This document shows positions 22,268-49,069 of a DNA stretch of 64,000 bases, in pieces. Where the stretch lies: the NCBI RefSeq assembly GCF_005144885.1, contig NZ_CP039690.1, positions 6,312,873 to 6,376,872 on the forward strand, in the 5' to 3' direction. Each line of letters begins with the position of its first letter. Positions within the stretch are counted from its first letter, which is position 1. A program made the translations under genes and the position numbers. The notes beneath the pieces are model-generated. The model was not told the origin of the DNA, searched no databases, and worked only from the letters and a program-made list of their open reading frames with translations. This DNA comes from Phreatobacter stygius (lineage in GTDB: Bacteria > Pseudomonadota > Alphaproteobacteria > Rhizobiales > Phreatobacteraceae).

Positions 22268-22331
22268 CCTCGCCCGCGTCTTCGCGGGAGAGGGTTTACG
22301 CGCTGCGCGTTTTGCGTCATCGCCACTCGCC
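22268..22331. repeat. Palindromic intergenic repeat, type A, copy 1
   Basis: A hairpin with CCCGCGTCTTCGCGGG is followed by GAGAGGGTTTACGCG and a short tail ending near CACTCGCC. Related copies lie at 42145-42210 and 47080-47148. It occupies the gap between the EAL gene and the convergent AhpD-like gene and could serve as a transcript end, although it lacks a T-run. Confidence 0.85.
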
Positions 22332-40610: not shown

Positions 40611-41858
40611 ATGAGCATGCTTGCCCATCTTCTCTCGCGCTTCGTCAAGAACGGCCGCCTGACCGTTCTGCATCACGATGGCGGGCGCGAGAGCTTCGGC
40701 TCCGGCACCGGCGGGCCGGATGTGACGGTGAAGCTGCATGACGCCAAGGTGCAGCGCGAGCTGTTCTTCAACCCGGAACTGGCCTCGGCCGAAGCCTATA
40801 TGGATGGCCGCCTGACGATCGAGAACGGCGGCAAGGTGCTGGACCTTCTGACCCTGTTCTCGGTCAACCGGACGGGCTTGGGCTCGCATCCGGTGCAGCA
40901 GGCCCTGCGCAAGGTCTGGCGCGCGCTGAAGCGCCGGCACCAGGCCAACAAGGTCGGCCAGGCCGCCGCCAATGTGTCGAGCCACTACGACCATCCCAGG
41001 GCCTTCTACGAGCTCTGGCTGGACGAGACCATGAGCTATTCCTGCGCCTATTTCGAGCGGCCGGACGTCTCGCTGAGGGATGCGCAGGTCGCCAAGATGC
41101 GCCATATCGCGGCCAAGCTGCGGCTCGAACCGGGCATGACGGTCGCCGAGATCGGCTCCGGCTGGGGCGGGCTTGCGACCTATCTCGCCGCCGTCTGCGA
41201 CGTGCACGTCACGGCCATCAACGTCTCGCCGGATCAGCTGGCGGCGTCCAAGGACCGGGTCGAGAAGGCCGGCATCGCCGACCGCGTCACCTTCTTCGAA
41301 AAGGACTATCGCGAGCTCACCGGCCGCTTCGACCGGGTCGTCTCGGTCGGCATGATGGAACATGTCGGCGTCAGCCATTTCGACGACTATTTCTCGACCG
41401 TGAAACGCCTCCTGAACGATGGCGGCTATGCCATGATCCACGCCATCGGCCGGATGTCGCCGCCCGGCACAACGGCGCCCTTCATCCGCAAATACATCTT
41501 CCCCGGCGGTTATGTTCCGGCGCTCTCGGAGGTCTTCGCCTCGACCGAACGGACCGGGCTCTGGGTCGACGACTGCGAAGTGCTGCGGCTGCATTATTAT
41601 TGGACCATCAAGGCCTGGCGCGAGAATTTCGAGGCCGTGCGCGACCAGGTGGTCGCCATGCAGGGCGAGCGTTTCGCGCGCATGTGGGAATTCTACCTGG
41701 CTGCCGTCGAGCTCGGCTTCCTGCACGGCTCCAACATGGTCTACCAGCTGCTGCTGTCGGACACGCGCGACGCGGTGCCGGTGCAGCGCGATTTCATCAC
41801 GGCGGCGGAAGCCGCGCTGAAGCCCCGCGAAACGAGGCTGCCATGGTCGTCCACCTGA
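40611..41858 (+). CDS. cfa: Cyclopropane-fatty-acyl-phospholipid synthase
   Basis: Cfa methylenates unsaturated acyl chains of membrane lipids with S-adenosylmethionine, usually in stationary phase or under stress. The 415-residue protein has the N-terminal lipid-binding domain and a SAM methyltransferase domain with VAEIGSGWGGLATYLA, YDHPRAFYELWLDETMSYSC, VSVGMMEHVG and FIRKYIFPGGYVP, matching the family core. The start MSMLAHLLSRFVKNG is chosen. Its 3' end overlaps the acylphosphatase gene by 16 bp. Confidence 0.94.
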   Translation: MSMLAHLLSRFVKNGRLTVLHHDGGRESFGSGTGGPDVTVKLHDAKVQRELFFNPELASAEAYMDGRLTIENGGKVLDLLTLFSVNRTGLGSHPVQQALRKVWRALKRRHQANKVGQAAANVSSHYDHPRAFYELWLDETMSYSCAYFERPDVSLRDAQVAKMRHIAAKLRLEPGMTVAEIGSGWGGLATYLAAVCDVHVTAINVSPDQLAASKDRVEKAGIADRVTFFEKDYRELTGRFDRVVSVGMMEHVGVSHFDDYFSTVKRLLNDGGYAMIHAIGRMSPPGTTAPFIRKYIFPGGYVPALSEVFASTERTGLWVDDCEVLRLHYYWTIKAWRENFEAVRDQVVAMQGERFARMWEFYLAAVELGFLHGSNMVYQLLLSDTRDAVPVQRDFITAAEAALKPRETRLPWSST

Positions 41859-42127
41859 TCATTTCCGGCCGCGTCCAGGGCGTCGGTTATCGCCAGTGGC
41901 TGAGCCGCCACGCCGCGGCGCGCGGTGTCCAGGGCTGGGTGCGCAATCGCCGCGACGAGACCGTCGAGGCGGTGCTGTCAGGCGACGAGGCCGCGGTCGA
42001 AGCCACCATCAACGAGGCGATGAACGGCCCGCTCGGCGCCAAGGTCGACCGCATCGACCGGCGCGAGGTGGCGGAGGCCGACGCCAAAGGGCTTACCCAG
42101 GGTTTCGATATCCGCCCGACGCTCTGA
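41843..42127 (+). CDS. acyP: Acylphosphatase
   Basis: AcyP hydrolyses the carboxyl-phosphate bond of acylphosphates. The 94-residue protein shows the active-site arginine in ISGRVQGVGYRQWLSRHA and the asparagine in GWVRNRRDETVEAV, in the normal spacing. The ATG at 41843 overlaps the end of cfa in another frame, so the two are probably co-transcribed. A type A palindromic repeat follows. Confidence 0.94.
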   Translation: MVVHLIISGRVQGVGYRQWLSRHAAARGVQGWVRNRRDETVEAVLSGDEAAVEATINEAMNGPLGAKVDRIDRREVAEADAKGLTQGFDIRPTL

Positions 42128-42144: not shown

Positions 42145-42210
42145 CCCTCCCGCGTCTTCGCGGGAGAGGGTTTACGCGCGCGGGGCGTTTCGCTTCAGTC
42201 GCCATTCGCC
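42145..42210. repeat. Palindromic intergenic repeat, type A, copy 2
   Basis: It has a hairpin with CCCGCGTCTTCGCGGG, then GAGAGGGTTTACGCGCGCG and a tail ending CCATTCGCC. It matches 22268-22331 closely. It ends directly before the lipB-derived fragment that marks the left border of the insert. Confidence 0.9.
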
Positions 42211-42211
42211 C

Positions 42212-42302
42212 CACCAAACCGTCACCGAGGCTGCAAGAGTGCGCCTCGAAGCTGCGGCTCAGCAGCGTGTCGACCGCTTCCACGGTCACCGGCAGGCGGA
42301 GA
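42212..42302 (-). pseudogene. Remnant of the 3' end of lipB
   Basis: This stretch aligns with the last about 95 bases of the intact lipB gene (44677-44770) in the same orientation, including the region of its stop codon. The minus-strand translation contains LPVTVEAVDTLLSRSFE against [17 protein letters not shown] in LipB. A one-base difference and loss of the stop make it non-functional. The best-preserved part, 42244-42297, is 50/54 identical to 44706-44759. Confidence 0.8.
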
Positions 42303-42348
42303 GCAACGACGCTGGAGCCGTTCTCGGAAGCACGCGGGGAGTGCGCGA

Positions 42349-42388
42349 TTTGCGCGCGCAAAGGTAGCAACTCCGTGTTATGTGCTAC
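42349..42388. promoter_or_regulatory. Two dyads upstream of the Sel1-repeat protein gene
   Basis: TTTGCGCGCGCAAA (42349-42362) is a perfect 14-bp palindrome. GTAGCA (42364-42369) and TGCTAC (42383-42388) form an inverted repeat with a 13-bp spacer. Both lie 32-71 bases before the preferred ATG at 42420, a position suited to an operator or promoter overlap. No regulator gene is adjacent. Confidence 0.4.
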
Positions 42389-42419
42389 GGAAGAGTTCTC
42401 CGATACTCTTGAGCGACAG

Positions 42420-44606
42420 ATGATCCGGAAGAGCCTTTCGTGCTTGGTCTTCGGCATTGGCGGCGCGGTGCTCCTGGCAGAGAGCTCCCCAAGCGCACTC
42501 GGGGTTGCGGCAATCGCCGGCAGCCTCATGACTGGCGCCGCAGGAAACTTCCTGCATGAGATCGCCGACAAGACAGACCGACGGCTGCTGACCGCGATCT
42601 TTCGACGGCGCCCGGAGATTAACGAGAACAACCACATTCTCCTGGCCTTGAGGCAAGCGCACCTCCTGGCGCTCGATCGCGTGTTGACGCGCTATGATTC
42701 GGCTTGGCGCGACGATCGCGACGCTTCACGCAGCGCCAAGGCAGAACGGTTCTCCCGAGAGGCCCGCCGGTTTCTGAAGGAAGCCAAGCTCGAAGCCAAG
42801 ACAGGCGCTGGCGCGCTGACCGACCTCGAACGCACGGTGTTTGCGGAGCTTCCGGCGGCGTTCAACGCGGCATTCGCCGCAGGCGGCAAAAAGTCCCCGG
42901 AAGCAGCGCTGGTTGACGCACAAGAGTTGCGCAAAGACGCCGAGGCAGCGGTCCTCGCCGAACTTCTCATGGAGACCGGAACCGACGATGGCGAGCTGCC
43001 ACCGCTTTTCCGCAGCATATTCATTGGCGTGCAGGGCGATGGCTGGTTCGATATTTTCGTGCACGGCGGGGTCGCGAGCCTGAGGGAAAACAAGGCGTTT
43101 CATGCAATCTGGACGGCCGAAAGGCTTGCCGGGATCTCTCAGCAGACCGACAAACTGCTTACGACCGTCGAACAGGCCTCGATCGATGCCGAAAGACGGC
43201 ACCAGGAAGCCGAGCGACGTGGCGAGCGTATTGAAGGCAAGATTGATGTCATCCTGGCAAACACCGGAGGAGAGGCGAGCGTCATAGGCGGGGCGGCATC
43301 GAGAGCCTCATCCGTCGGCCGATCGTCAGACCCACTGATGGCATACGAGCCGTCGCCCACGGCGACGAGGGCGGCCAGGTCACCTTCGCGTCGCGTGGCT
43401 GCGGAGCCCGGGCAGGTGGACCGTGTCGGCCGGTCCCCCGCGGTGATGCTTCTCGGCCTTCTCGTCATTGGCGCGCTGACCGGTGTCGGGCTGTCCTGGC
43501 AGCACATCGTGCCCCTCTTGGCCTCCGCGCCGGCGATCGCGGCCAACCCGTGTGACTTCTTGGCCAAGGCTCCCTGGGACAAGGACAGTCCCTATAGCGG
43601 CCCCGCGCGCCATGACCTCCCATTGCAGGAAGTGGCAAGCGACGCGCTCAGCGCGTGCCGGGACGCCCATGCCAAATATCCCAATGAGGCACGCTTTCAG
43701 TATCAACTTGGACGCGCCTTGCGCGCCCGGGCCAATTCGGGGCGCTCGCCGGACGCCAAACGCGACCTCGAAGAGATGCACAGCTTCGTGTCCGCCGCAT
43801 TCAACAAGAACTATCCGGCAGCGCGTCTTGATTACGCCTATAATCTGATCCGGGGCCTGGGCGTAGGCAAGAATCCGGAGCAAGGGTGGCGCGTGCTCCT
43901 CCAGCAGTTGCGTCCGGATGCCGATCCCTCGTCGTGGGACGCGTGGTCCGCAAGCGAGGCCTGCGCCCATCTTTTCGAGGGCTTCGCAACACCACCGGGC
44001 GTTCCGGAAGGGCAGCGGAACGCGCTGGCATTCAGGTATTGCGACGCATCCTTCAAGAAGGATCGCAACCCCTGGGCCGCGAGCTATTTGTCGGTCATGT
44101 ATTTTCGGGGCCAGGGCGTCACGGCCAACCCTGAGCAGGCGTTCACCTATGCCGCGCTTGCCGAGCCAACGCGGATTCCGGGCGCTCTACATGATCTCGG
44201 CTGGTTCTATCAAGAAGGCGCCGGCGGGGCCGGGCAATCAATGTCGACCGGGCAGCGCCTCAAGCGAGCGACGGAGTTGTTCCTGGAAGCGACCAAAGTG
44301 CACGAACGCCAAACGGGGCGCTACTATACCAAATCCGATAATCAGTTGTGCTTCATCTATTTTGGTGTCCTGAGGGAAGGCGCTGCTTTCGAAGATGAAA
44401 TTAGTCCGATTTCCAGTCAGGACATCATCAATATCTGCCGAAGGGCAGAGGAGGCGGGTTGTCCGTCGGGTTTCTATGCGTTCGCCAGAATGTATTCGAC
44501 CGGCAGCTATTCAGCGGTCGGGATTCCCAAGGACGGAAACGTGGCGACGGCATATCAGGGCCGGTTCGAGCGCGCCAAAGCACAACGGCCGAACAGTTGC
44601 TTGTGA
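42420..44606 (+). CDS. Membrane protein with C-terminal Sel1-like repeats (cargo of the putative insert)
   Basis: The 728-residue product is not assigned to a known gene. Two close hydrophobic segments (about residues 6-20 and 26-45) come first. A helical region with NHILLALRQAHLLALDRVLT (about 73-90) and SLRENKAFHAIWTAERL follows, then a charged coiled coil (about 240-280). A third transmembrane helix (about 340-362) precedes a Sel1/TPR-like array (about 460-722; units around YAYNLIRGLGVGKNPEQGW, YLSVMYFRGQGVTANPEQAF and GWFYQEGAGG). No Walker, protease or nuclease motif was found. The helical N-terminal part recalls modules ahead of repeat arrays in bacterial STAND-like proteins, a weak inference. 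The frame extends to a GTG at 42267, but that codon lies in the lipB remnant, so 42420 is preferred. Confidence 0.7.
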   Translation: MIRKSLSCLVFGIGGAVLLAESSPSALGVAAIAGSLMTGAAGNFLHEIADKTDRRLLTAIFRRRPEINENNHILLALRQAHLLALDRVLTRYDSAWRDDRDASRSAKAERFSREARRFLKEAKLEAKTGAGALTDLERTVFAELPAAFNAAFAAGGKKSPEAALVDAQELRKDAEAAVLAELLMETGTDDGELPPLFRSIFIGVQGDGWFDIFVHGGVASLRENKAFHAIWTAERLAGISQQTDKLLTTVEQASIDAERRHQEAERRGERIEGKIDVILANTGGEASVIGGAASRASSVGRSSDPLMAYEPSPTATRAARSPSRRVAAEPGQVDRVGRSPAVMLLGLLVIGALTGVGLSWQHIVPLLASAPAIAANPCDFLAKAPWDKDSPYSGPARHDLPLQEVASDALSACRDAHAKYPNEARFQYQLGRALRARANSGRSPDAKRDLEEMHSFVSAAFNKNYPAARLDYAYNLIRGLGVGKNPEQGWRVLLQQLRPDADPSSWDAWSASEACAHLFEGFATPPGVPEGQRNALAFRYCDASFKKDRNPWAASYLSVMYFRGQGVTANPEQAFTYAALAEPTRIPGALHDLGWFYQEGAGGAGQSMSTGQRLKRATELFLEATKVHERQTGRYYTKSDNQLCFIYFGVLREGAAFEDEISPISSQDIINICRRAEEAGCPSGFYAFARMYSTGSYSAVGIPKDGNVATAYQGRFERAKAQRPNSCL

Positions 44607-44676
44607 CCAAGTCCGGCCGGCATCGCCTTGATGGCGCACCGCAAAGAGGTGACGGCGCTGAATGCGACCGCGTCGT

Positions 44677-45384
44677 CTAAACCGCCACCGTCGCCCCGAA
44701 ACGCTCCTCGAAGCTGCGCCTCAGCACCGTGTCGACCTCTTCCATGGTCACCGGCAGGCCGAGGTCGACCAGGCTGGTGATGCCGTAGCGCGGGTCCTCG
44801 ATGCCGCAGGCGACGATGCCGCCGAAATGGTCGAGATCCGGTTCGACGTTCAGCGAGATGCCATGCAGGGTCACCCAGCGCTTCACGCGGATGCCGATGG
44901 CGGCGATCTTGTCCTCGTGGCCGGCGCCCTTGTCCGGGCGTCTCACCCAGACGCCGACCCGGTCCTCGCGCCGCTCGCCGCGGATGTTGAAGCCGGCCAG
45001 CGTCGCGATGATCCAGGCTTCCAGCGCCGCGACGAAGACGCGCAGGTCGCGCTTGCGCCGGTTCAGGTCGAGCATGACATAGGCGACCCGCTGGCCGGGA
45101 CCGTGATAGGTCATCTGGCCGCCGCGGCCGGCCTCGAACACCGGAAAGCGGGCGTCGATCAGGCCGGCGCCGCGGGCGCTGGTGCCGGCGGTATAGAGCG
45201 GCGGATGTTCGAGCAGCCAGATGCGCTCGGCCGCCCGGCCTTCCGAGATCGCCTGGACATGCCGGTCCATTTCGGCCAGCGCATCCTCATAGGCGACCGG
45301 CTCCGGCGCGATCAGCCATTCGACCGGCGCCGCGCCGTCGACCGGCGTCAGCGCGCCGACTAATTCCTCGCGGGTATTTACCAC
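44677..45384 (-). CDS. lipB: Octanoyl-[ACP]:protein N-octanoyltransferase
   Basis: LipB moves octanoate from ACP to lipoyl domains, the first step of lipoate synthesis. The 235-residue protein has [34 protein letters not shown], the lysine in [20 protein letters not shown] and the catalytic cysteine in [20 protein letters not shown] at 45384 ([14 protein letters not shown]) is chosen. Its C-terminal coding end (44706-44759) is duplicated at 42244-42297, across the putative insert. It is divergent from the FliN-like gene. Confidence 0.94.
44706..44759. repeat. Right direct repeat (functional lipB 3' end)
   Basis: This is the 54-bp segment of intact lipB that matches 42244-42297 with four mismatches, in the same orientation. 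It would correspond to the regenerated attachment site of an element using the lipB 3' end. Confidence 0.75.
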
Positions 45385-45434
45385 TCGTTCACCATGATCA
45401 TGGTCTGGTAACAGCCACTCCTGCTGGTGCATTC

Positions 45435-47046: not shown

Positions 47047-47168
47047 CGAAGGGCGAGTAGCGAGTAGGGCTGCGCGCAACCCTCGCCCACGGCTTCGCGG
47101 GAGAGGGTTTACGCGCGCGGCGCTCGCGGCTTCATCCCCATTCGCTATTTGCCACTCGCTATTCGCTT
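47047..47168. repeat. Nested repeats: type A copy 3 inside type B arms
   Basis: GCGAGTAGCGAGTAG (47053-47067) and the inverse with CTATTTGCCACTCGCTATTC (about 47145-47168) form the outer arms. Type A copy 3 (47080-47148, CCCACGGCTTCGCGGGAGAG and GGTTTACGCGCGCGG) lies between them. The element fills the gap between the convergent UPF0173 and folE genes. Confidence 0.85.
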
Positions 47169-48571: not shown

Positions 48572-48943
48572 ATGAGCGGCTCCGATCTCGACCGGCTGTT
48601 TGACGACAAGCGTCCGCGGCGCTGGCCGAGGCTGGCCGGCCATTGGCTGCTGCGCGGCTACCAGCTGAGCATTTCCATGCTGGTCGGCCGCTGGTGCCGG
48701 CATATGCCCAGCTGTTCGGCCTATATGGACGAGGCGGTCATGCGCCATGGCCTCTGGGCCGGCGGCTGGACCGGTTTTGCCAGGCTTTGCCGCTGCCATC
48801 CGCTTGGCACTTCCGGCATCGACAACCCGCCGCTCGTCCTGCCGGACCGGGCACGCTGGTTTCTGCCCTGGCGTTACGGTCAATGGCGCTGGCGCAGGGG
48901 CGGGCCGGTCTGCGAAGCCGTGGACGTCGCTCAGAAACCTTGA
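48572..48943 (+). CDS. yidD: YidD membrane-protein insertion efficiency factor
   Basis: YidD helps YidC-dependent insertion of inner-membrane proteins. The 123-residue protein has an amphipathic N-terminal helix region (LLRGYQLSISMLVGRWC) and the family cysteine pattern CRHMPSCSAYMDEAVMRHG with ARLCRCHPLGTSGIDNPP. The last codons (QKP and TGA at 48941) belong to the first unit of the 24-bp tandem array. It is normally encoded near yidC or rnpA; here it follows the IscU-like gene. Confidence 0.92.
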   Translation: MSGSDLDRLFDDKRPRRWPRLAGHWLLRGYQLSISMLVGRWCRHMPSCSAYMDEAVMRHGLWAGGWTGFARLCRCHPLGTSGIDNPPLVLPDRARWFLPWRYGQWRWRRGGPVCEAVDVAQKP

Positions 48944-49069
48944 TCCCCCCGCGATCAGAAACCTTGATCCCCCCGCGATCAGAAACCTTGATCCCCCCGC
49001 GATCAGAAACCTTGATCCCCTCGCGATCAGAAACCTTGATCCCCCGCAATCAGAAACCTTGATCGCGGG
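48931..49069. repeat. 24-bp tandem array shared by two convergent gene ends
   Basis: Units starting with TCAGAAACCTTGATC begin at 48931, 48955, 48979, 49003, 49027 and 49050; the first four are 24 bp, the fifth 23 bp and the sixth partial. Read on the plus strand each unit contains CAG AAA CCT TGA (the yidD stop in unit 1). On the minus strand each contains GAT CAA GGT TTC TGA (the stop of the ClpP-like gene in unit 6). There are no unique spacers, so it is not a CRISPR. Confidence 0.95.

Follow-up and report, generated by a model that had tools for sequence, protein, structure and literature searches.

The 64,000-nucleotide stretch analysed here (positions 6,312,873-6,376,872 of the Phreatobacter stygius genome, a single contig of 7,354,671 bp; hereafter the window) carries, beside the octanoyltransferase gene lipB, an insert of 2,363 bp that holds one gene, termed the cargo gene. 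The insert is bracketed by two direct copies of the lipB 3′ end: one belongs to the intact lipB, and the other is a decayed fragment on the far side, most likely the displaced native end. This insertion scar is real and readable; its target is uncommon, and the class of event is ordinary. The scar has the topology of one crossover joining the chromosome to a circle on which the gene and a lipB tail lay together. We tentatively favour, short of confidence, entry of the cargo gene by a Campbell-type crossover of a small circular DNA with the lipB 3′ end.

The lipB-tail duplication and its insert

Aligned globally, 42216-42315 and the final ∼100 bp of lipB (44679-44777) are identical in 80 of 100 columns, with a single gap and both copies in the same orientation. 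The preliminary description, made from the letters of the window, had reported a 54-bp match at 50 positions between 42244-42297 and 44706-44759, inside intact lipB, with weaker similarity reaching into the lipB stop region; the alignment agrees, with 50 of 54 identical and similarity running from the last base of the stop codon. Its picture of like-oriented copies around ∼2.4 kb with one large, AT-richer gene was also borne out: GC content is 0.623 in the insert and 0.662 in the window, and the cargo gene is compositionally foreign, with GC at third codon positions (GC3) of 0.72 against 0.84-0.89 in five neighbours.

A repeat search of the window returned the same pair as 42241-42315 and 44703-44777 (direct, 85% over 75 nt, spacing 2462). 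Its chance level is a BLAST E-value of 8e-22 to 4e-18, varying with the stretches compared; on the same stretches the real match scores 89.8 bits, while 200 dinucleotide-preserving shuffles of the left 1 kb reach 31.6 at most. Self-comparison of the window yields 16 pairs at E 1e-6, among which the lipB-tail pair is the strongest direct one.

The features of the locus are as follows (coordinates in the window, with strand).

41843-42127, plus: acyP (acylphosphatase), the conserved left neighbour; Pfam Acylphosphatase E 1.2e-21 on the enclosing open reading frame (ORF); the order CFA-acyP-lipB recurs in nine same-genus genomes.
42149-42210, no strand: copy of the type A repeat with ATTCGCC at its end, natively the neighbour on the downstream side of lipB; 42 own-genome matches including itself; same lipB-end junction in the nearest same-genus relative (G003).
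42216-42315, minus: probable displaced, decayed copy of the lipB 3′ end (left copy), with its core at 42244-42297.
42316-42419, no strand: non-coding left part of the insert, as far as the probable start codon of the cargo gene; lipB similarity stops at 42315, and in the long ORF the match to a relative sets in at residue 51.
42420-44606, plus: cargo gene, 728 aa; N-domain relatives, a Sel1 match under the Pfam cut-off, alignment, and a low-confidence all-helical model.
44607-44678, no strand: spacer from the cargo stop to the lipB end, the right end of the insert; its last two bases lie inside the lipB stop codon (44677-44679), and similarity to the left copy starts at 44679.
44677-45432, minus: lipB, intact, 251 aa; LplA-B_cat E 3.2e-34; 90% amino-acid identity to G003; right repeat copy at 44679-44777.

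Gene order across the region is CFA synthase, acyP, type A repeat, lipB-tail copy, cargo gene, lipB, a small conserved gene, ruvX and a metal-hydrolase-like gene; the names CFA synthase, ruvX and metal-hydrolase-like gene are ones we take these genes to bear.

Three other accounts of the arrangement were ruled out. A dispersed repeat unrelated to the insert, which the preliminary description had named as what would undo its claim, does not fit, since with 40 of 67 candidates scored the left copy matches two places in its own genome at E≤0.001, whereas type A has 42 matches. A genus-wide scan for second copies missed the real lipB tail itself in 7 of the 12 genomes, which makes the lack of a second copy weak evidence in those seven. 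A transposon is rejected because none of the 25 pairs listed (of 30) is an inverted one linking the two ends of the insert, and the ORF has no transposase match; the flanking duplication of ∼100 bp is also unlike the short target duplication of a transposon. Nor is the insert part of a larger island, as both flanks consist of genes that are syntenic in the nine same-genus genomes with the interval on one contig.

The acyP-lipB interval and the probable displaced copy

In the nine same-genus genomes where acyP and lipB share a contig, the interval between them ranges from ∼36 bp (G007) to 1.4 kb. That of G005 (L087 2176-3550) holds a PIN-domain gene, a FitA-like antitoxin gene and a DinB-family gene; by eye, the G011 interval looks alike and several other relatives seem to have the DinB-family gene. 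The interval is thus variable in content across the genus. In G008 the CFA gene and lipB lie far apart. In G003, the nearest same-genus relative and our reference for lipB and junction comparisons, a sequence resembling an insertion sequence (IS) by eye (L098 2090-2196, L086 1-200) appears to interrupt the interval at contig ends. The insert itself is specific to this species among the genomes compared. An empty site, in which type A should join lipB directly, had been proposed as a check; G003 has exactly this junction, with the IS-like sequence and a contig break further out, and in G007 acyP and lipB are separated by ∼36 bp only.

Type A is a dispersed intergenic GC-rich palindrome, GTTTACGCGC, often followed by a run of ATTCGCC-like heptamers. 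Copies in the window lie at 42149-42210, 22268-22331 and 47081-47145. With 42 own-genome matches at E≤0.001, the query included, it looks like a REP-like family.

The junction with type A bears on which lipB end is native. In the window the type A end ATTCGCC is followed by CCACC (5 nt) and then by AAACCG, where the similarity to the lipB end starts; in G003 the type A end is followed by CGTC (4 nt) and the same AAACCG, and the TCA there is the lipB stop. In an alignment of nine own type A copies and that of G003, ATTCGC(C) or a close variant of it closes the matched part. The left copy has kept the type A junction and lost the stop codon, and the intact lipB now abuts the insert. Because the left copy abuts type A as the lipB end does in G003, it is most likely the displaced native end; and since this displaced end kept its old neighbour, the direction of the insertion event can be inferred. 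The arrangement is as first described, with a restored gene on one side and a displaced fragment on the other.

A wider alignment with 11 relatives, from which 21 gap columns were dropped and which includes some columns outside the repeat, contains 34 ungapped columns that differ between the two copies. G003 agrees with the intact copy in 28 of them, with the left copy in four and with neither in two, and at 25 of the 34 the base of the left copy occurs in no relative (n=11). By these bases the left copy reads as a decayed fragment of a close lineage and not as the lipB end of a remote one. A distant donor of the tail was likewise rejected: by eye, the left copy shares own and G003 bases against most other relatives.

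Elsewhere in the window, a short tandem array at 48928-49064 consists of a 66-bp direct repeat at 94% identity with a few bases between copies, translating in two frames as repeated SETLIPPR and GGSRFLIA.

The cargo gene and its relatives

The longest cargo ORF runs from GTG 42267 (779 aa); from ATG 42420 it encodes 728 aa. In the longer ORF the best relative matches from residue 51 onward, and the conserved block begins close to ATG 42420, so that the left copy is probably upstream of the cargo gene and not inside it.

The protein has an N-terminal domain of ∼250 aa (N-domain), a possible membrane segment (by eye) and Sel1-like repeats, the latter with a Sel1 match of E 5e-6, below the Pfam cut-off. 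No Pfam, NCBIfam or PADLOC model matches the N-domain, and PADLOC and NCBIfam scans of the whole protein gave nothing; in PHROGs, two families of unknown function match the repeat part. The AlphaFold model is all-helical and of low confidence (mean pLDDT 57), and a profile search of solved structures reached E 0.14 at best. TPR models match up to four of the six full-length cargo relatives scanned, where the cargo protein has a Sel1 match. A search for related loci started from the cargo protein alone was unproductive in genome_contigs and viral_contigs. A role in signalling or defence by way of helical repeats is a guess.

Caspase family proteins on 14 Rhizobium plasmid records resemble the C-terminal part, with 26-27% identity across ∼30% of the protein. 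The likeness to rhizobial caspase family and Sel1 proteins is confined to this part; no caspase domain was found in the cargo protein, whose N-domain matches no model. Sel1-repeat genes with a caspase domain were seen directly downstream of lipB in G034 (L134 462-3149) and upstream of it in G048 (L048 706-3201). These are two of 60 relatives, both distant within the order, and their nearness to lipB may be chance.

Among the 11 same-genus genomes none has the N-domain; in G003 and G011 cargo matches are weak, cover the repeat part only and lie elsewhere in the genome. The N-domain was found in 5 of 396 other genomes in the order sample and, weakly, in 2 of 384 others in the class sample. It also occurs at seven genome_contigs loci, in Rhizobium sp. 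L43, R. ecuadorense, Methylobrevis albus, Ancylobacter polymorphus, two Rhodopila metagenome-assembled genomes (MAGs) and a Rhizobiales MAG; three of the seven are the same records as order-sample matches. The N-domain is thus a small, sparse alphaproteobacterial family without a model in the libraries searched.

None of seven distinct cargo-relative loci tested has flanking direct repeats of comparable strength; these loci come from two scans of five each with three records in common, L175 and L176 being left out as no gene was located there. In the Ancylobacter locus (L110 4257-5267) a 336-aa ORF with Recombinase and recombinase zinc-ribbon domains (serine-recombinase C-terminal) lies 2.3 kb from the cargo relative, and in a Rhodopila MAG (L176 23-1162) a DDE transposase lies ∼1.3 kb from the cargo match. 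Mobile genes near two cargo relatives mildly favour some mobile vehicle for the family.

Possible routes of entry

The entry that we tentatively favour would have run as follows. On a small circular DNA the cargo gene would lie together with a second lipB 3′ end, and one crossover inside the lipB tail would integrate the circle into the chromosome. The chromosomal lipB would thereby gain, towards the insert, a complete tail with its stop codon and stay whole, and the native tail, still joined to type A, would be left beyond the insert to decay later. The similarity on the right sets in with the final base of the lipB stop codon, which is where it should begin if the cargo gene and lipB were neighbours at the source of the incoming tail; that on the left stops at 42315, within lipB sequence, as it would at a fragment joint. 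The left copy has not decayed evenly: changes affect 4 of 54 core columns and 16 of 46 outside (Fisher 9e-4), and the better-kept core fits a crossover or conversion tract.

Searches for an integrase and for repeated use of the site bear on what drove the recombination. The one large ORF of the insert has no recombinase match in Pfam and other library scans. The window has no tyrosine integrase, all six PF00589 matches of the genome lying elsewhere; serine recombinases were not searched for genome-wide. In 40 relatives (of 60), the lipB tail of the respective genome was used to scan 0.5-17 kb of sequence downstream of the gene; the 40 took in 8 of the 11 same-genus relatives, G001, G003 and G009 being left out. 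None of the 40 carries a duplication. The only strong match is that in the window (E 1.6e-21), and the best others are 63 bp at 67%, 11 kb off (E 6e-5; L120), and 33 bp at 79% (E 5e-4; L127). Use of lipB as a recurrent integration site among the relatives tested is thereby ruled out.

It had been suggested that an integrase-bearing relative be looked for at the same place and that other elements be searched for a copy of the lipB end; neither turned up. No relative among the 40 has an integrase nearer than ∼10 kb to lipB, the distance of a match in G032 alone, which is most like the best PF00589 protein of the P. stygius genome and for which ‘Xer-type’ is our label. The queries were ORFs around the PF00589 matches of the P. 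stygius genome, and since some were in the wrong frame this is a rough screen. Exact 30- and 26-base patterns gave no attP-like record in viral contigs. The 122-bp lipB tail matched 193 phage and 25 plasmid records at E≤1, none covering 80% of the query; among the matches listed, one is annotated as lipB itself. A literature search found no report of lipB as an integration site. So far the pattern looks like a one-off rather than a regular docking site. With no integrase found and no recurrent use of the site, a host-driven route is favoured; we infer a circular intermediate and a crossover, and host homologous recombination as likelier than an integrase of the element that has since been lost. 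Of the initial attL/attR reading, the anatomy, the species-specific insert and the empty site stand, and an integrase-made origin is not supported.

Several findings weigh against the single crossover of a circle. None of 14 cargo-relative loci contains lipB, and no donor with the cargo gene beside lipB was found in the order sample, the class sample or the genome_contigs loci. No foreign signature was detected in the intact lipB end: the comparison with G003 counts 8 differences over the 101 sites of the tail and 74 over the other 655 sites of the gene (Fisher p 0.39). The incoming tail would therefore have come from a very close lineage, or none came in. A native end and that of a very close donor look alike in this comparison, but the result speaks against an element with a divergent end of its own. 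A plain duplication that decayed uniformly may still account for the pattern, as random placement of the changes over the 100 columns, which are few, gives p 0.008 for the best-kept 54. Finally, across five genes 122 of 544 four-fold sites differ between this genome and G003, or ∼11% per lineage, against 20% divergence of the left copy. This suggests that the event is about as old as the G003 split or older, or that the copies were unlike from the start; in the former case it may predate the split, with G003 then having lost the insert.

A remnant integrative element, with attB in the lipB 3′ end and an integrase gene since deleted to leave attL, one cargo gene and attR, is rather unlikely in our estimation. 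It would have the anatomy of e14 at icd of Escherichia coli (PMC6379469), the better-kept 54-bp core resembles an att core, and the recombinase of L110 and the transposase of L176 stand near cargo relatives. What speaks against it is the integrase-free window, the 40 relatives with neither the duplication nor an integrase within ∼10 kb of lipB, the lack of an attP-like record in viral contigs, phages and plasmids, and the seven cargo-relative loci without comparable repeats. The intact lipB tail looks native, and G003 and most relatives side with the intact copy at the differing columns, as would be so if foreign DNA had been captured by end joining at a staggered or re-replicated break in the lipB tail, duplicating ∼100 bp of target. 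Both copies would then be native and the unneeded one decayed. The genome has two Ku matches for such a repair. We hold this route to be unlikely, as it leaves the start of the right copy at the stop codon unexplained and does not predict the uneven preservation of the core, and a 100-bp duplication is, as general knowledge has it, long for such repair. The Ku matches are adjacent and divergent (G000:C1:6839512-6840775), and Ku occurs in 6 of the 12 genus genomes.

Linear DNA might instead have crossed over in lipB at one end and been joined illegitimately at the other to the native tail, which was left behind. Such homology-facilitated illegitimate recombination is described as a route of gene gain at one-sided homology in the part of PMC3240628 drawn on here, and it yields boundaries as observed. 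It too needs a donor with the gene next to lipB, and none was found in the order, class and genome_contigs samples; lipB moreover shows no clear mosaic against G003. We regard it as quite improbable.

Known systems offer partial parallels to the single crossover and its rivals. According to the sections of PMC6379469 cited, e14 integrates site-specifically at icd, the prophage re-supplying the gene end and leaving a 163-bp pseudo-icd fragment. The lipB locus shares the direct repeats of the 3′ end of a protein-coding gene, the gene kept whole and a pseudo-fragment on the far side (163 bp for e14, 100 bp here); it differs in that no integrase was found, one gene was inserted, the target gene is another and the intact end lacks a foreign signature. 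Incoming DNA in E. coli can integrate after circularisation in a recA-dependent manner, as the cited portion of PMC3240628 reports. Single-crossover and homology-facilitated illegitimate integration, as far as set out in the excerpts of PMC3240628 and PMC5361080 used, resemble our case in the homology to a host gene, the foreign gene added, the old end displaced and no recombinase needed on the incoming DNA; here, unlike there, no donor locus was identified and the case is known from its sequence alone. Within the same order, integrative and conjugative elements of Mesorhizobium use the protein-coding genes guaA, radC and dusA as sites (PMC8627217, main text). Those elements are large and were delimited with integrases and conjugation genes, and that main text does not name lipB.

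The broader idea of a minimal mobile unit, one gene with the tail of a housekeeping gene and no recombinase of its own, which enters by host homologous recombination and leaves the gene unharmed, is very improbable in our judgement. As a single case the locus changes little. It preserves gene gain in readable, fossil form; further cases, if found, would show how single genes enter beside a housekeeping gene without an integrase.

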